Below, in pieces: positions 40,391-49,004 of a DNA stretch of 64,000 nt (within the stretch, counting starts at the first letter, position 1; each line of letters begins with the position of its first letter). The stretch is taken from NCBI RefSeq assembly GCF_024300625.1, contig NZ_CP101322.1:509992-573991 (forward strand). Reading direction: 5' to 3'. Origin of the DNA: Halovivax gelatinilyticus (GTDB lineage Archaea > Halobacteriota > Halobacteria > Halobacteriales > Natrialbaceae). The notes beneath the pieces are model-generated. The model was not told the origin of the DNA, ran no database searches, and worked only from the letters and a program-made list of their open reading frames with translations. The translations under genes were made by a program, and so were the position numbers.

Positions 40391-40721
40391 TACACAATCG
40401 CCAAGTCACTCATCAACCGCAACACAGCTGAAGTCGAAGTTCTGCTCGGTGACAAGGGGTACGACGATCAGCAGATTCGAGCAGCGGCCCAACAGGAACG
40501 AGATTCGTCCACCTCTCAATCACCGTGAGTTTTCCTCACATCAGAAAGCGTGGAACGCTCGACTGGATGCCGACATCTCCGCTCAATGGTACCAGAGCGA
40601 AACGGTGAACTCTCGACTCAAGCGTAAGTACGGTGCGTTCGTGCGGTCACAACCCTGGTGGAAGCAGTTTCGTGGACTCGCCCTTGCATATATCGTCTAC
40701 AATCTCGACCGATTCTTCTAG
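40391..40721 (+). pseudogene. IS5-type (ISH) DDE transposase remnant, frameshifted and 5'-truncated
   Basis: The first frame gives TIAKSLINRNTAEVEVLL, then GDKGYDD, the second catalytic region of IS5-like DDE transposases. After a single frame change near 40,500 a second frame continues RPPLNHREF and ends YQSETVNSRLKRKYG...WWKQFRG...IVYNLDRFF, the usual C-terminal E-region. The N-terminal half, including the first Asp, is missing. No intact terminal repeats were seen. It is a decayed insertion sequence. Confidence 0.8.
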
Positions 40722-40977: not shown

Positions 40978-41418
40978 ATGAATGAGTCAGAAGAGGACTC
41001 ACAGCACGAGTTACTTGCCCACGTTCTCGTTCCGGTCGCACATGAAGAGGATGCGCTGAAGACAGCGAACGCACTTGCACCCTATAATCCGAATCGAGTG
41101 ACAGCCCTTCACGTCGTCGAAAAAGCCGGTGGCGCACCCGACAAAACGCCTGTTGAACAATCCGAGGAGGTAGCCGCGGAAGCGTACGCGGCCGTTCGCA
41201 CGATCTTTTCTGATGCTCAAACGCAGACAGCATACGCGAGGGATATTGTTGGGGCCATCTTCGAGACAGCTGACGAAGTCGGTGCCAGCGCAATCGCCTT
41301 TCGATCCCGAGGAGGTAATCGGATCATGCACTTTCTCTCTGGCGACTTGTCATTAAAACTCGTCACCGAAGCTGATCGGCCCGTCATTGCACTTCCCCAC
41401 ATCGAATCTGAGGAGTGA
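40978..41418 (+). CDS. Universal stress protein UspA family
   Basis: The 146-residue protein has an alpha/beta UspA fold: HVLVPVAHEEDALKTANALA at the start and TADEVGASAIAFRSRGG near the end. The final strand is ADRPVIALP. The ATP-binding glycines (G-x2-G-x9-G) are only partly kept (SRGGNRIMHFLSGDLS), so it may belong to the non-ATP-binding class. ATG 40978 lies about 25-32 bases after ATAATTTATC, a TATA box, so it is probably leaderless. It begins the transport/stress module that follows. Confidence 0.85.
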   Translation: MNESEEDSQHELLAHVLVPVAHEEDALKTANALAPYNPNRVTALHVVEKAGGAPDKTPVEQSEEVAAEAYAAVRTIFSDAQTQTAYARDIVGAIFETADEVGASAIAFRSRGGNRIMHFLSGDLSLKLVTEADRPVIALPHIESEE

Positions 41419-41474
41419 TGTCTATCGATTGGAGTAGTCAACAATTTGGATAGGTTACCCGTCTTTCGGGACTG

Positions 41475-41657
41475 CTATTCAGAGTCCTCGCGGAAGAAAT
41501 ACGTCGCCATTTCTGAGGAACCGCATACAGTGCAGCGGTCGCGGTTCTCGTCGTAGTTCGAGCCACAATGGCGACACTCGTGGAGCATAATTGAGCCACA
41601 CGAGGTCTTTGGGTCGGTATTGAACAGTAAATCAGAAAGAAATTTCGGAAGACGCAT
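41475..41657 (-). CDS. Small zinc-ribbon protein
   Basis: The 60-residue protein has a short hydrophobic-basic N-terminus (MRLPKFLSDLLFN). A single zinc ribbon follows: HECRHCGSNYD, then DRCTVCGSSEMATYFF. This layout is common in tiny haloarchaeal zinc proteins. The ATG at 41657 is preferred; a GTG two codons upstream overlaps the stop of the regulator gene, so the two are coupled. It probably binds zinc for a protein or nucleic-acid contact; function unknown. Confidence 0.75.
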   Translation of the reverse strand: MRLPKFLSDLLFNTDPKTSCGSIMLHECRHCGSNYDENRDRCTVCGSSEMATYFFREDSE

Positions 41658-41662
41658 TAGCA

Positions 41663-42454
41663 CTATGCCGGTACTGTAGAATCCGAGTCATCTGTTTTCT
41701 TGAAGGGGTCTATAGTCGGTTGCTTTTCTCCATGAGGCGAGAACAGCGTGACGATGTCGTTCGATTGAATTACCGTGTCCCCATGTGGAGTCATTGTCTC
41801 GTCACCACGTTCAATTGCGATCAGTAACGTATCATCATCGAGTAGTCTCGCTTCGACGGCCTCCTGAATGGTCCGTCCAACAATCGGTGCTTCCTCTTCG
41901 ACGGTGATATCGACGACCTCTGCGCCGCCCGATAGTGAAATCGAGTCCGCGAGTCGCACGTCCTGACCGTTGTCGGGGCCGAAGGGGGCGTAGGGGTGGT
42001 GTTTCTCGTCTTGAACAAGCATTTCATCTTCGATTTCAAGCCCGAGATTCGAGAGCTGGCGCCCGATTCGACGCAACTCCGTCGTGTCCTCGCCGACCGC
42101 AAGAACATGCATGTTCGTCCGACCCCCCATCAGTTCGCGGACGTTGACGATGCCTGGGATCGTGCCGGCCTGCGCTGTGATTCGCTCGATGTCGGGGAAC
42201 GGAACGTTACACAGAAACAGGTTCGTCAGTCGACCGTCGGCTCGCTCGAAGTTGACTTCTGCGTGGTAACCCGTAATGATACCGTGATCCTCAAGGCGAG
42301 CAATTCGGTTGCGGATTGTCGCCGGTGAGACATTGACGTGCTCGGCAATCTCGGGTGCGGACGTCGTACGCGCGTCGTCCATTAGAGCGTAGAGTATTCG
42401 TCGATCGATTTCGTCTAAACGATATTCATCCGCTGACCCCGAGTCGGACACCAT
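41663..42454 (-). CDS. Lrp/AsnC-type transcriptional regulator fused to an RCK-C (TrkA-C) domain
   Basis: The 263-residue protein has an N-terminal AsnC helix-turn-helix (LDEIDRRILYALMDD, then VSPATIRNRIARLEDHGIITGYHA). A RAM-like middle follows (about 75-150). The C-terminal RCK-C/TrkA-C domain (about 180-250) reads VVDITVEEEAPIVGRTIQEAV, then DTVIQSNDIVTLFSP. RCK-C domains bind small ligands such as cyclic di-AMP in other proteins, so this regulator may sense a nucleotide or ion state. It is divergent from the permease gene next to it, with 181 bases between, making that gene and the TrkA channel its likely targets. Confidence 0.87.
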   Translation of the reverse strand: MVSDSGSADEYRLDEIDRRILYALMDDARTTSAPEIAEHVNVSPATIRNRIARLEDHGIITGYHAEVNFERADGRLTNLFLCNVPFPDIERITAQAGTIPGIVNVRELMGGRTNMHVLAVGEDTTELRRIGRQLSNLGLEIEDEMLVQDEKHHPYAPFGPDNGQDVRLADSISLSGGAEVVDITVEEEAPIVGRTIQEAVEARLLDDDTLLIAIERGDETMTPHGDTVIQSNDIVTLFSPHGEKQPTIDPFKKTDDSDSTVPA

Positions 42455-42635
42455 GATCGTACTCTGATTTTTTCCTCGGTAGTAATAGTACCCCCACATT
42501 TTCGACCCGCTAAATTGATCCGGTGAAGATACTGATTCCGTAATCAATTCGTAGGTTCTATATGTCTTTCCCGGGCAAGTGGAGACAGACCTCGGCGTCT
42601 CTCGATGAATCGAGAGTGCGAAACAAACGAAAGCC
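42455..42635. promoter_or_regulatory. Divergent promoter region between Lrp-RCK regulator and permease
   Basis: This 181-base A/T-rich spacer separates the divergent regulator and permease genes. It contains several A/T runs (GTAGTAATAGTACC and TTCTATATG) suited to promoters for both. No repeat was certain. Confidence 0.4.
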
Positions 42636-44906
42636 ATGTCAGAAGAACTAGAACGCGACCTCGGACTGGCCTCAGTCGTGGCCATTAGTATGGGGGCGAT
42701 GATCGGCAGCGGAATCTTCATTCTGCCCGGGTTGGCCATGGCCGAGGCTGGTCCGGCGGTCATCCTAGCGTTCGTCGTTGCTGCCGTTCTCGTCCTCCCG
42801 GCAGCGGTCAGTATCGCCGAACTTGGTACGGCGATGCCCGAAGCGGGCGGCGATTACATCTTCATCGAGCGTGGCATGGGTCCAGGCGCAGGGACGATTG
42901 CAGGCCTCGGAACGTGGCTGATGTTGATGTTCAAAGGAGCACTCGCGCTCGTCGGCGGGATGTTGTATATTGGTCCGATTTTCGACCGAGTCGGGCTCGA
43001 AGTGACGGGTGTGTTCCTCGAACTCGGCATTATCCAGATCACGCAACTCGAACTGCTGGCAGTTGTGATCGGTATCCTGTTGATCACCGTCAACATGATC
43101 GGTGTCAAGCAGACCGGTGGCCTCCAGAAGATCCTCGTCCTCATCATGCTGTTCATCCTCGGCGGATTCGTCGCACTCACGGGCGGGAACGTCGAGGGAG
43201 GAAGCTACGCAGGGTTCTTCGATGAAGGTGCAGTCGGGTTGTTCGCCGCGACCGCGATGGTGCTGATATCATACGGCGGCGTCACGAAGGTCGCTGCTGT
43301 CGCCGAAGAAATCGAGAATCCCGGCAGAAATCTCCCGCTCGGCTTGTTGCTCTCACTAGGCCTCACGACAGGTCTGTACGCGCTGATCGTGTTCGTGCTC
43401 GTAGGCACCATCGATGCGGCCACACTGGAGGGGTCAGAGATTCCGATGGTGGACGGGGTCGATCCGTTCTTTGGATTCGTCGGCGTCGTCTTGATCGTAA
43501 TCGCCGCCATGTTCGCGTTGATTAGCACGGCCAACGCTGGTATCCTTACTGCCTCACGATACCCCTTCGCGCTAAGCCGTGACAACCTGCTCCCGGATCA
43601 GTTTGCAACGGTCAGCAGCCGCTTTCGAACGCCGACGACTGCGATACTCACGACTGGTGGTGCGATGCTGCTCATCATCGTCACCCTCCCGGTTGACGAG
43701 ATCGCAAAGACTGCAGGAGCCTTTCAGATCGTGGTCTATATCCTGGTCTGTCTTTCTCTGATCGCGTTTCGCCGTCGTGACCCGGAGTGGTACGAACCCG
43801 ATTTCCGGTCGCCGCTGTATCCGTGGATTCAGTGGTTTGGCGTCGTCGCTGGACTCGGAATCCTCACGCAGATGGACACACTCCCACAGGTCGGCGGCGT
43901 CGGCATCGCGCTCGTGGGGGCGCTCTGGTACTGGTTCTACGGCCGACCGCGGGTTGACCGAACTGGACTCGTCGGCGAGGCGATGATCGACGCGGTCGAA
44001 CCAGCACCGGAAGGGGACGATGAGACACCGTACCGAGTCGTTGTTCCAATAGCGAACCCAACAACCCAACGGCAACTCCTTCGATTGGCCGCAGCGAGCG
44101 CGGCGAACGAGGACGATGCGGAACTAGTCGTCACGAATGTCATCACAGTCCCCGACCAGACATCGCTCGCCCAGGAGGTCGAATACGAGGAAGAACGGAT
44201 CAAACGACAGCAGGAACTCCTCGCAGAGGCGGAGGATATTGCCCAAGAACTCGGCATCGGACTCCGTACCCGGGCGATTGTCGGTCGAGACGTCGGGGAA
44301 ACTATCTTGCACGTGATCGAGCAGGAGGACGCTGACGATGTCGTGATGGGGTGGTCGGGAACGCGGAAGCGCCGCGAACGTGTCCTCGGCTCGAACATCG
44401 ACAAGATCATCGAGCGTGCCCCGTGTGAAGTCACCCTGGTGAGACAGGGTGACGACGAATCCGTCGGGGATGTCGTCGCATTCGTTGGCGAAGGGCCGTA
44501 CTCGTCGGTCGCCGTCCGGAAGGCGGCGGCGTTCGTCCGAGCCGAGGCGGGTGCGTCGCTTACGCTGGTGAACGTCCAGCCATCCGTTGAGGATGAAGAT
44601 CCAACGGATGCAGTCGAACGCGGCCGCGCTCTCATCGAGGAAACCGCCCGCACGGCCGGCGTCGAAGAATACGACTCAGATGTCGTCATCAGCGAGAACA
44701 TCGAGTCGGAACTTGTTTCGATCGCCAGTGAATACGAGGCGACCGTTCTCGGCGTCTCGCGGGTGAATTCCATCGAACGGTTCCTCTCGGGCGCAATACC
44801 AGAGACCATCGGCGAACAGGTATCGGGGACGATTGTCCTCGTCCGGAGCGGCGAGAAGACCCGCCGCTCGCTCCGATCTGCGATCATCCAACGACTCTCG
44901 TCCTGA
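42636..44906 (+). CDS. APC-superfamily amino acid permease with two C-terminal UspA domains
   Basis: The 756-residue protein starts with the APC motif GAMIGSGIFILPG and has about 12 membrane helices to residue 440. Two universal-stress-protein domains then follow in the cytoplasm. The first is about 465-610 (VVVPIANPTTQRQLLRLAA, then DVVMGWSGTRKRRERVLGSNID), the second about 620-750 (VAFVGEGPYSSVAVRKAAAF, then ATVLGVSRVNSIERFLSGAIPE). The UspA half likely senses ATP or stress and gates transport. It is followed by the TrkA-channel gene one base after its stop, so they form an operon. The substrate, an amino acid or other amine, cannot be told. Confidence 0.92.
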   Translation: MSEELERDLGLASVVAISMGAMIGSGIFILPGLAMAEAGPAVILAFVVAAVLVLPAAVSIAELGTAMPEAGGDYIFIERGMGPGAGTIAGLGTWLMLMFKGALALVGGMLYIGPIFDRVGLEVTGVFLELGIIQITQLELLAVVIGILLITVNMIGVKQTGGLQKILVLIMLFILGGFVALTGGNVEGGSYAGFFDEGAVGLFAATAMVLISYGGVTKVAAVAEEIENPGRNLPLGLLLSLGLTTGLYALIVFVLVGTIDAATLEGSEIPMVDGVDPFFGFVGVVLIVIAAMFALISTANAGILTASRYPFALSRDNLLPDQFATVSSRFRTPTTAILTTGGAMLLIIVTLPVDEIAKTAGAFQIVVYILVCLSLIAFRRRDPEWYEPDFRSPLYPWIQWFGVVAGLGILTQMDTLPQVGGVGIALVGALWYWFYGRPRVDRTGLVGEAMIDAVEPAPEGDDETPYRVVVPIANPTTQRQLLRLAAASAANEDDAELVVTNVITVPDQTSLAQEVEYEEERIKRQQELLAEAEDIAQELGIGLRTRAIVGRDVGETILHVIEQEDADDVVMGWSGTRKRRERVLGSNIDKIIERAPCEVTLVRQGDDESVGDVVAFVGEGPYSSVAVRKAAAFVRAEAGASLTLVNVQPSVEDEDPTDAVERGRALIEETARTAGVEEYDSDVVISENIESELVSIASEYEATVLGVSRVNSIERFLSGAIPETIGEQVSGTIVLVRSGEKTRRSLRSAIIQRLSS

Positions 44907-44907
44907 T

Positions 44908-46593
44908 ATGAGCACCAGCACGTTACCGATCGACGAGGAGACGAACTGGCGACAACGCATTGCACTGACGGTAATCGGTATCGCCGCAATCCTTGTCCTG
45001 TACACGTTACTCTACCAGTGGGCGTCGAGCGCGTTCACCGGGCAGGAGATTTCGTTCGCCCAGGCGCTCCAGAAGGTCGTCGAGATCGTCACCACCGCAG
45101 GGTTCGGTGGTGATACTGACGTGTGGGAACAGAGCGATCGGTTCGCTCTGATGATTGTGTTCATGAACCTCTCGGCTGTGCTCCTGGTCTTCGTCGCCAT
45201 TCCGCTGTACGCCGTACCGCTGTTCCGGCAGGCAATGAAAACTCGGCCGCCGACGACCAGCGATCTGACTGATCACGTAATCATCTGTGGCTACTCCGCC
45301 CAGGACGAGGTGTTGCGTAAGGAGCTTCAGGCGGTCGATATCCCGTATCTGTACGTCGAACCAGACCCCGAACTGGTGATGGAGTTGAACGAGCGAGGGC
45401 TCAACGCAATCATGGGCGATCTGGAGTCGGCCGACACCTATCGCGCGGCCAACGCCACTCACGCACAAGCTCTCGTGGCTGACATCGACGACGAGACGAA
45501 TCCCACCGTGATCCTTTCGGCCAACCAAGTTAATCCCGACCTGCGAACAATCAGCGTTATTAAAGAACTGGAAGTTGAGACCTATCACCGCTACGCGGGG
45601 GCCGACGATATCGTCTCAACTCGACAACTGTTAGGGAAAAGCCTCGGGCTGCGTGCGGCGGGTACCTATGCGGAAAAGCTTCAGCAAGCGATCGAGGTCG
45701 AGAGCGACCTCCAGATCACAGGGGTGTTAGTCGAGAAGGGGAGCGACCTCGTCGGCCAGACATTAAGAGAATCCAGGGTCTTCGATCGGATGGGCGTCAC
45801 GATCGTTGGTGCCTGGATCGGCGGGAAGTTCGTCGTCACCCCTGATCCGGACACCGTAATCGAGGAGAACACGATCCTTCTAATCACCGGCGAGCACGAT
45901 GACTTCGAGGATTTGCAGACCCGAAAGATTCCGGCACACGATGAGCACGAGCCACGGGTGGTCGTCTGTGGTTTCGGGACGGTCGGTCAATCAGTCGTCG
46001 AAACGTTGCAAGCGGAGGGACTCCAAGTAGAGTCGATCGACATCGAACCCAAAGACGGTGTAGATATCATCGGCGACATAACAGACCCGGAGACATTGGA
46101 GCGAGCAAACGTCGAGGACGCGCGTGCCGTGGTCCTCTCGATTGACGAGGATACGACCACGATTTACGCAACGCTAATTCTCAATCAACTCGCACCGGAC
46201 ACCGAGATCGTCGCCCGCGCTGGCGGCGACGATAGCGTGCAGAAACTCTACAACGCCGGCGCTGACTTTGTGCTCTCACTCTCTCACTTGACCGGTGAGA
46301 GCCTGGCGTCGTTGCTAATAGAGGAGTCGGAGATCCTGACTCCTGACGTCAACTTTGAATTCATCCGGGCGTCAGTGCCGACGTTTATTGGACAGAGTCT
46401 GGGTGAACTCGATTTGCGAAATCAAACCGGCTGTACGGTCGTTGCGGTCGAGCACAACGGCGAGGTATTGACAGACATCGGCGCGAACTTCACGATCGAA
46501 GGAGACGATGTGCTCATTGTTGCTGGCAGCAAGGCATCGCGGAATCGATTCCACCAGTTAGTCACAGAGATGGAAAAGAACGATACTAGCTGA
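44908..46593 (+). CDS. TrkA/RCK ion-channel protein (two membrane helices, two RCK pairs)
   Basis: This 561-residue protein has two membrane helices flanking a pore-like loop (EIVTTAGFGGDTDVWEQSDRF) in its first 110 residues. Then come two RCK units. RCK-N 1 (HVIICGYSAQDEV) and RCK-C 1 (VGQTLRESRVFDRMGV) occupy about 125-340. RCK-N 2 (RVVVCGFGTVGQSVVETL) and RCK-C 2 (IGQSLGELDL) occupy about 345-555. The loop TTAGFGGD differs from the usual T-V-G-Y/F-G-D potassium filter, so selectivity is uncertain. It is co-transcribed with the permease, 1 base after its stop. A role in ion homeostasis under control of the Lrp-RCK regulator is inferred. Confidence 0.9.
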   Translation: MSTSTLPIDEETNWRQRIALTVIGIAAILVLYTLLYQWASSAFTGQEISFAQALQKVVEIVTTAGFGGDTDVWEQSDRFALMIVFMNLSAVLLVFVAIPLYAVPLFRQAMKTRPPTTSDLTDHVIICGYSAQDEVLRKELQAVDIPYLYVEPDPELVMELNERGLNAIMGDLESADTYRAANATHAQALVADIDDETNPTVILSANQVNPDLRTISVIKELEVETYHRYAGADDIVSTRQLLGKSLGLRAAGTYAEKLQQAIEVESDLQITGVLVEKGSDLVGQTLRESRVFDRMGVTIVGAWIGGKFVVTPDPDTVIEENTILLITGEHDDFEDLQTRKIPAHDEHEPRVVVCGFGTVGQSVVETLQAEGLQVESIDIEPKDGVDIIGDITDPETLERANVEDARAVVLSIDEDTTTIYATLILNQLAPDTEIVARAGGDDSVQKLYNAGADFVLSLSHLTGESLASLLIEESEILTPDVNFEFIRASVPTFIGQSLGELDLRNQTGCTVVAVEHNGEVLTDIGANFTIEGDDVLIVAGSKASRNRFHQLVTEMEKNDTS

Positions 46594-47366: not shown

Positions 47367-49004
47367 TCACTCCACCGGCGACACGTCCGTCACCGTTCCC
47401 ACGCCCTTGCTCCGGCCCTCGCGGAAGACGAACTTCTGGCCCTCTTCGACGAGGTAGGGGCGGAATTTGAAGCGAACGCGCGTCGTCCCGGTGTCGCCGG
47501 GAAGCAGCCGCCCGTCGTCGGGGTGGAAGGCGGCGGCCTCGCCGATCGTCTCCAGGTGGACGACGGGTTCGTAGCCGTCGCCGATGCGCGTCGGGTGGTT
47601 CAGGACCATCACCTCGGCTTCGAACTCGCGAACGGGGTCGGGATCGGCGTCGGCCGGCAGGAGGACCATCCCCCGTTCCAGGGCTGACTCCTTGATCCCT
47701 TTCAGCGCGATGCCGACGATGCGGCCAGACCGGGCGTGGTCGACGCGGTGGTAGTGCATCTCGATCGAGCGCACCTCGACCTCGCGAAAGCGGCCGTCGG
47801 GCATCGGCCCGACGAGGAGTTCGTCGCCGGCTTCGACCTCGCCCGACTTGATCGTCCCCGAGGCGACCGCGCCGACGCCGGTGACCGAGTAGGATCGATC
47901 GACGTACATCCGGAACTCGCCGTCGTCGTCGGCCGTCTTCGGCAGGCGATCGAACAGCTCGTCGAGGACGTCCAGGCCCTCCATCGTGACGGCGCTCGTT
48001 TGAACGATCGGGACGACGGTGTCGCTCACCTCCTCGACGGCGGCGTCGACGCCGTGTCTGGAGACCGACAGCGGCGACTTCTCGACGTCGCGCAGCAGGC
48101 GCTCGACCTCGCGTTCGACTTCGGCAACCCGCGCCGGGTCGACCGCGTCGGTCTTCGTGATCGCGACGATCGTCGGCAGCTCCGTCGCGAGCAGGACGCC
48201 CAGGTGCTCTCGAGTGACGCGCGTCGGTCCGTCCTCGGCCTCGACGACGAGCAGGCCGTAATCTAACTTCTGTCCGACGAGCCCGCGGATCGTGGTCCGC
48301 AACCAGGGTTCGTGACCGACCGTGTCGACGAACGAGACCAGCCGGTCTGCGTCCTCGACGACGGCCGCGCGATCTTCCTTCCGGTTCGGATTGCGGACGT
48401 GGACCGGCCCGTCGTCGTCGAACCCGTAGACGGCGTAGGAGAGGTCCGCCGAGAGGCCGCGCTCGACCTCGTGAGGTTTGACGTCCAGAAACGCGCGGGT
48501 TCCGCCGTCGCCGTCGTCGGCCCGACCGGTGACGAGCGAGCCGACCAGCGTCGACTTGCCGTGGTCGACGTGGCCGGCCGTTCCGATGACGATGTGTTCG
48601 TCGTCGGTCTCCAGGACGGCGCCGTCACAGACGGTCGCGACGCCGACGAGGCCGTCGTCGCCCGCGCCGTTTCGCGAGACGCCCGCTTCGCGGTCGACGC
48701 CCCAGGTCTGGACGTCGTCGATGTGCGCGCCGGCCTCCTCGGCGAGCAACGAGAGGACGTCCATCGACTCGGAGAACGCTTCGTGGGAGATACCCGCGAG
48801 GCCGCCGTCGTCGGTCACGCCCACGACGTACGTCGCCTCGCCGTCGCCCGAAAGCACGCGGTGGCGAAGCTGGGCCGCTAGACTCTCCCGGCGACCCTCT
48901 GCCAGGTGAACGTTCCGGGAGAGTCGCTCCTTGAACTCGACGTTGCCACCGTCCTCCTCGCCTCGGTCCAGGGCCCGCTGCAACAGGGCCCGGTCACGGG
49001 ACAT
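47367..49004 (-). CDS. GTPBP1-like translational GTPase
   Basis: This 545-residue protein has an N-terminal domain of about 135 residues. An EF-Tu-like G domain follows: P-loop GTAGHVDHGKST, DTVGHEPW and ITKTDAVD. Two beta-barrel domains complete it, with VTGVGAVASGTIKSGEV and ending FVFREGRSKGVGTVTDVSP. This matches the archaeal/eukaryotic GTPBP1/GTPBP2 group, related to EF-1alpha and thought to act on mRNA or ribosome rescue. Role inferred. The start is ATG 49004. A copy of its last 21 residues is found near 40,300. Confidence 0.9.
   Translation of the reverse strand: MSRDRALLQRALDRGEEDGGNVEFKERLSRNVHLAEGRRESLAAQLRHRVLSGDGEATYVVGVTDDGGLAGISHEAFSESMDVLSLLAEEAGAHIDDVQTWGVDREAGVSRNGAGDDGLVGVATVCDGAVLETDDEHIVIGTAGHVDHGKSTLVGSLVTGRADDGDGGTRAFLDVKPHEVERGLSADLSYAVYGFDDDGPVHVRNPNRKEDRAAVVEDADRLVSFVDTVGHEPWLRTTIRGLVGQKLDYGLLVVEAEDGPTRVTREHLGVLLATELPTIVAITKTDAVDPARVAEVEREVERLLRDVEKSPLSVSRHGVDAAVEEVSDTVVPIVQTSAVTMEGLDVLDELFDRLPKTADDDGEFRMYVDRSYSVTGVGAVASGTIKSGEVEAGDELLVGPMPDGRFREVEVRSIEMHYHRVDHARSGRIVGIALKGIKESALERGMVLLPADADPDPVREFEAEVMVLNHPTRIGDGYEPVVHLETIGEAAAFHPDDGRLLPGDTGTTRVRFKFRPYLVEEGQKFVFREGRSKGVGTVTDVSPVE

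Follow-up and report, generated by a model that had tools for sequence, protein, structure and literature searches.

A probably transferred haloarchaeal gene module that may couple amino-acid transport to potassium flux under a divergent Lrp-RCK_C regulator

The 64,000-nucleotide stretch of Halovivax gelatinilyticus DNA analysed here (the window; positions 509,992 to 573,991 of NZ_CP101322.1, a genome of a single 3.70 Mb contig) contains five genes that, on balance, we believe constitute a transferred haloarchaeal module coupling amino-acid or organic-solute transport to K+ flux under a divergent Lrp-RCK_C regulator. The five genes are likely to form a functional unit. Relatives of the regulator lie beside K+-uptake or amino-acid transport genes in most of the sampled haloarchaeal loci, and the regulator therefore probably ties K+ balance to the transport of amino acids. 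Haloarchaea balance molar KCl, and the open-licence literature yielded no description of a transcription factor controlling their Trk, permease or channel genes. If correct, the proposal identifies a candidate regulator whose relatives occur in almost every sampled genome of the class, together with its DNA site and types of target, and opens K+ sensing by a transcription factor to direct tests in haloarchaea that can be manipulated genetically.

Organization of the Module

The module spans positions 40978-46593 in the order Usp / zinc ribbon-regulator / permease(Usp)2-channel. A single-domain Usp protein is encoded on the plus strand at 40978..41418 (Pfam Usp, E=2.9e-7); its ATP motif is degenerate by eye. 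The minus strand carries a small zinc-ribbon protein with two CxxC pairs at 41475..41663, identified by a weak Zn_Ribbon_1 match below the cut-off, and the Lrp/AsnC-type regulator at 41663..42454, the end of which shares one base with the zinc-ribbon gene. Divergent from the regulator, on the plus strand, is an APC-family permease at 42636..44906, whose transport part (approximately residues 1-440) continues into two fused Usp domains (approximately residues 460-756); the assignment, AA_permease with two Usp stretches, comes from Pfam and NCBIfam. A single base separates its stop from the start of a GsuK-like channel at 44908..46593 (plus strand), which has two transmembrane helices, the filter TTAGFGGD and two tandem RCK domains (two TrkA_N and two TrkA_C matches). 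A sequence-only reading of this DNA had named four of these genes at the same coordinates, with the one-base spacing and the divergent regulator, and all four are confirmed at those places; the single-domain Usp gene and the RAM domain of the regulator had been overlooked.

On the right, the module adjoins an EF-Tu/SelB-like translational GTPase of normal G+C (47367-49004, minus strand). On the left lies a small open reading frame (40449-40721, plus strand) that looks like a transposase remnant from its C-terminus, SRLKRKYGAFVRSQPWWKQF...; a check of this origin found no Pfam family and one weak paralogue in the genome.

The Regulator Has Two Potential Sensing Domains

The regulator combines an AsnC-type HTH (residues 15-56; E=9.5e-14) with a C-terminal TrkA_C domain (RCK_C, residues 171-239; E=4e-11), as assigned by Pfam. 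An AlphaFold2 model built with 46 relatives (mean pLDDT 83.7, pTM 0.51) predicts a complete RAM fold, β-α-β-β-α-β, at residues 76-146 between the two, and thus the succession of HTH and RAM that defines Lrp/AsnC (FFRP) proteins. The linker that precedes RCK_C is the low-confidence part of the model, and the low pTM fits a flexible connection between domains. Foldseek matched the model to the Lrp/FFRP structures PH1519, AldR and Lrp and, separately, its RCK_C to the C-terminal domain of TM1088B (3jxo, a TrkA C-terminal domain; TM-score 0.81 normalised by target). Residues L210, R216, T222, P223, G225 and D233 of RCK_C are invariant. The regulator has two potential sensing domains, a RAM of the amino-acid type and an RCK_C of the TrkA type.

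The same architecture, with a TrkA-C domain at the C-terminus, characterizes Trh2 (VNG1285G) of Halobacterium salinarum, and it is by architecture that the two proteins are likened. As far as the available portion of the published account goes, Trh2 is an Lrp/FFRP protein whose architecture is restricted to Halobacteriaceae, with a DNA motif distinct from those of other FFRPs, a proposed role in K+/NAD+ sensing and a deletion phenotype without a clear growth defect (PMC4236453). The same portion argues that the Trh2 RAM domain is non-functional, in contrast with the fold predicted to be complete in the window regulator, and a Trk and Usp-fused permease context is not described in it.

Genomic Neighbourhood Across Haloarchaea

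Of the 242 genomes of the class, 241 contain homologues of the regulator (E<=1e-8), the presence of both domains being shown for the higher-scoring ones only. Members of the family are present in Haloferax species, among others. A scan for close relatives with a single protein returned none; an alignment-based scan found relatives. One hundred regulator loci of ~14.7 kb each were sampled, with neighbours scored within ~7 kb, and 40 channel-centred loci of ~17.6 kb each served as control. When all neighbours were clustered unsupervised, with no families named beforehand, APC-Usp, TrkH, TrkA, Usp and the zinc ribbon ranked at the top. The APC-Usp fusion lies near the regulator in 52/100 loci vs 3/40 control loci (Fisher P 3e-7), TrkH in 48/100 vs 3/40 (P 2e-6), Usp in 46/100 vs 1/40 (P 7e-8), TrkA in 45/100 vs 4/40 (P 4e-5) and the zinc ribbon in 16/100 vs 0/40 (P 3e-3), P values that serve only as guides because the regulator and control loci are phylogenetically non-independent. 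The control loci are themselves centred on K+ genes, and any bias favours the control. Eighty further named loci, from species that partly overlap the first set, contain APC-Usp in 50, Usp in 40, TrkA in 32 and TrkH in 30; transport and Usp neighbours are absent from 18 of the 100 regulator loci.

The channel is a rarer companion, present near the regulator in 7/100 loci vs ~0.65 expected from an estimated 1.6 copies per genome. A general linkage of channel and regulator was rejected, most channel relatives being located elsewhere. The entire set of five genes recurs in the window order in one locus, L224, from a metagenome-assembled genome (MAG) of a Halobacteriaceae archaeon. Two close variants are L045, with Usp, regulator, permease and channel, and L213, from a Halovenus MAG, with regulator, zinc ribbon, permease and channel. 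The recurrence in L224 and the frequency of APC-Usp place the arrangement beyond chance. Together with the variants, they bear out the earlier proposal of one transport unit with a linked regulator, which would have fallen had the genes been scattered and unrelated in relatives; the search of other genomes found them to be neither.

The Lrp-RCK_C architecture (Trh2) and the Usp-fused permeases are already known. The features that appear to be new are the operator, the conserved K+/amino-acid context and, as a mobile variant, the set that includes the channel. The available portion of a large study of haloarchaeal osmoadaptation (PMC4230888) does not mention this regulator beside Trk, and a search of the open-licence literature found no report of the combined K+/amino-acid gene context.

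The neighbourhoods also bear on a different account, in which an amino acid sensed through RAM is the regulator's main signal and the permease its target, the K+ genes being passengers and RCK_C only a dimerisation domain. The predicted RAM fold is intact, and the gene that diverges from the regulator within 600 bp is more commonly Usp (22) or APC-Usp (19) than TrkA (6), TrkH (2) or the channel (1), as such an account would have it; the accessible part of PMC4236453 likewise assigns amino-acid effectors to most H. salinarum Trh proteins. Passenger genes are nevertheless hard to reconcile with TrkH or TrkA close to the regulator in nearly half of the loci, and a mere dimerisation domain with six invariant residues. 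With the case made against the RAM of Trh2 added to these, we regard this account as unlikely and favour a regulator that links potassium balance to amino-acid transport.

The Permease and Its Usp Domains

The best solved relatives of the permease transport domain are GkApcT (5oqt/6f34) and the cationic amino-acid (CAT) transporters. The window permease has the sequence GSGIF, and 91 of 94 relatives retain the GxGIF motif of amino-acid APC transporters. A K+ importer of the KimA type (KimA/KUP) was considered and rejected: amino-acid transporters are present among the solved-structure matches and KimA is absent to E=1. The permease would carry an amino acid or another organic solute, with the Usp domains as its cytosolic regulatory part. 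Haloarchaeal APC-UspA fusions and their adjacency to Usp genes were reported in 2011 (PMC3102087); the window permease has the architecture of those fusions, and the channel operon and divergent Lrp-RCK regulator are absent from that account.

By direct reading, Usp1 of the window permease carries an ATP-type motif, G-2x-G-9x-G-S. The motif is absent in 62 of 94 permease-Usp relatives, and ATP sensing is therefore not a property of the family. The earlier suggestion that the UspA domains sense ATP is thus plausible only for Usp1 of the window copy. In two loci, a formate/nitrite transporter-Usp fusion adjoins the regulator (L087:7784-9640 and L085:7781-9772).

The Channel, RCK_C Domains, and c-di-AMP

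The channel matches GsuK (4gx0/4gx5) over nearly its entire length at E ~1e-50. GsuK is a multi-ligand K+ channel of Geobacter (PMC3510474) and shares with the window channel two transmembrane helices, two tandem RCK domains, a phenylalanine in the filter and a GxGxxG motif in RCK2. In the window channel the motif reads GFGTVG in RCK2_N, and RCK1_N is devoid of it; its filter, TTAGFGGD, sets it apart from GsuK. The RCK2 of GsuK binds ADP and NAD+, and the phenylalanine in its filter is proposed to reduce K+ selectivity (PMC3510474). The channel, whose filter is read from its sequence, would pass K+ under the control of ligands bound to the RCK ring: RCK2_N would take a nucleotide, and RCK2_C possibly c-di-AMP.

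The sequence-only reading suggested that one small molecule, such as c-di-AMP, might act on both the regulator and the channel. A diadenylate cyclase (DAC) domain gene is present in the genome, and the last RCK_C of the channel (RCK2_C) has as its best solved match the c-di-AMP-bound RCK_C of BusR (7b5u, E=8e-8). The pocket of BusR is formed by I153, G154, N157, H160, A164, T165, G180 and P181 (PMC8517857), and at these eight positions the window channel has L, G, D, N, C, T, G and A. Among 49 channels, D stands at the position of N157 in 40, and T165, G180 and P181 are kept in 46, 36 and 31, respectively. In contrast with the D of the haloarchaeal channels, GsuK, for which we know of no c-di-AMP binding, has R at BusR position 157. 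Some of the motif is shared by GsuK and so belongs to the consensus of RCK_C domains in general.

The regulator differs. The best solved matches of its RCK_C are TrkA-type domains (3jxo, 3l4b); the only c-di-AMP binders among its matches are KhtT, weakly at E=0.044, and the antiporter RCK_C entries 5f29 and 4ys2 (CpaA), at E ~0.5. BusR and KtrA, sought among the solved-structure matches of this domain, are absent. A hand alignment places a 2-residue insertion in its pocket helix, which is without the G154, N157 and H160 positions, and neither the matches nor the alignment reveal a BusR pocket signature in it. The 7b5u match, the pocket residues in the 49 channels and the R of GsuK make the channel RCK2_C, and not the regulator RCK_C, the better candidate by sequence for c-di-AMP binding, and hence a candidate archaeal target of the molecule. 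The earlier claim is supported in part, by the cyclase gene and the channel match, and is not supported for the regulator.

The stronger form of that claim makes the regulator the archaeal equivalent of BusR and places the whole set in a single c-di-AMP regulon. Both regulators have a DNA-binding head and an RCK_C sensor, and BusR regulates an osmolyte transporter (PMC8517857); the fold of the regulator model matches BusR with low TM-scores, the pocket residues of RCK2_C are common across the channel family, and Haloferax volcanii produces c-di-AMP (PMC6741144). BusR, in contrast, has a GntR-type HTH and a coiled coil, whereas the window regulator has an HTH of a different family, a RAM in place of the coiled coil and a TrkA-type RCK_C that departs from the pocket helix of BusR. 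With the channel motif also partly generic, we consider a common c-di-AMP regulon even more doubtful than control by amino acids through RAM.

Horizontal Transfer of the Channel-Bearing Variant

The window regulator groups with those of L224 and L045 in a single clade (support 0.995). L224 is 80% identical to the window in the regulator, 78% in the permease and 71% in the channel, and its single-domain Usp, in the equal position, is 73% identical. The module has a G+C content of 57% vs 65% in its surroundings. A search of four congeners found no module at comparable identity, their best regulator matches having E values of 1e-29 to 1e-67 vs 1e-173 for the window's own copy. The low G+C and the far weaker matches in the congeners indicate that the module was likely acquired by horizontal transfer.

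The permease and channel genes overlap by 4 bp in L213 and L224, and the DNA of this pair is 99.8% identical over 3,969 bp between them (L213:7511-11478 and L224:1878-5845), with other neighbours differing. This shared DNA indicates either a recent transfer of the permease-channel pair or a MAG assembly error. The regulators that accompany the pair in L213 and L224 share only 60% identity, so that the pair would be separable from its regulator if the assembly of these two MAGs is sound. That the genes merely share a mobile low-G+C island without common function, as the composition, the congeners and the different regulators of L213 and L224 might allow, is highly improbable given a family-wide association that far exceeds the control, the 4-bp overlap and the retention of the set in diverged genomes, where regulator, permease and channel are still 71-80% identical.

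A Candidate Operator

Counting of dyads upstream of the regulators revealed the palindrome TTTTCGN3CGAAAA, perfect in 7 of 102 regions and 0 in shuffles. In the sister clade of the window's regulator clade, it precedes the regulator start by ~75-77 bp. The palindromes occur in pairs, 8 of them spaced at exactly 30 bp, 4 at 29 bp and 3 at 31 bp, against a null mean of 0.02 per spacing (mean-score z=10.7); the paired sites of BusR, in comparison, are spaced 22 bp apart (PMC8517857). The scan threshold gives ~37 chance matches over the set, and weight is therefore placed only on high-scoring pairs. In L053, L056, L219, L221, L223 and L226, similar paired boxes precede Usp or APC-Usp genes located 3-5 kb away from the regulator; these loci amount to fewer than six independent cases, since L053/L219, L056/L221 and others come from the same or closely related species.

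In the window, the proximal candidate operator is TTTTCGACCCGCTAA at 42499..42513, with two mismatches to TTTTCGNNNCGAAAA; at 8.4 bits it is the best intergenic site. A candidate second operator, very degenerate, lies exactly 30 bp from it at 42529..42543 and scores -2.1 bits; its box, GATTCCGTAATC, is conserved in L224 and scores 7.0 there. L045 has no palindrome site above threshold, and imperfect single-site matches over the whole window are in no excess above chance. Across 11 genomes, paired sites occur genome-wide at near-chance levels (reversed-pattern control, 3) except at the regulator promoter, which accounts for 4 of 12 places. This scarcity elsewhere suggests a local regulator. A broad genomic regulon is unsupported, single perfect sites elsewhere preceding apparently unrelated genes.

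Most likely, the regulator itself would bind the promoter region that it shares with the permease-channel operon, at two palindromic boxes spaced by 30 bp, and would adjust transcription of its own gene as well as of the operon. A more ambitious extension, possible but tentative, is that of a dual-sensor family, in which RAM would read an amino-acid signal and RCK_C the potassium or nucleotide state, and operators spaced by 30 bp would jointly control Trk, Usp-fused permeases and GsuK-like channels, so that one switch ties nitrogen or organic-solute transport to the salt-in strategy.

Two other dyads were observed. A perfect inverted repeat, CTCTCGAT-GA-ATCGAGAG, lies close 5' of the permease start at 42598-42616, and by eye none is seen at the corresponding place in L224 or L045. 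The second, ATTACT-N5-AGTAAT, is present in five upstream regions of regulators in other clades and 0 in shuffles, and is perhaps the operator of another regulator subclade.
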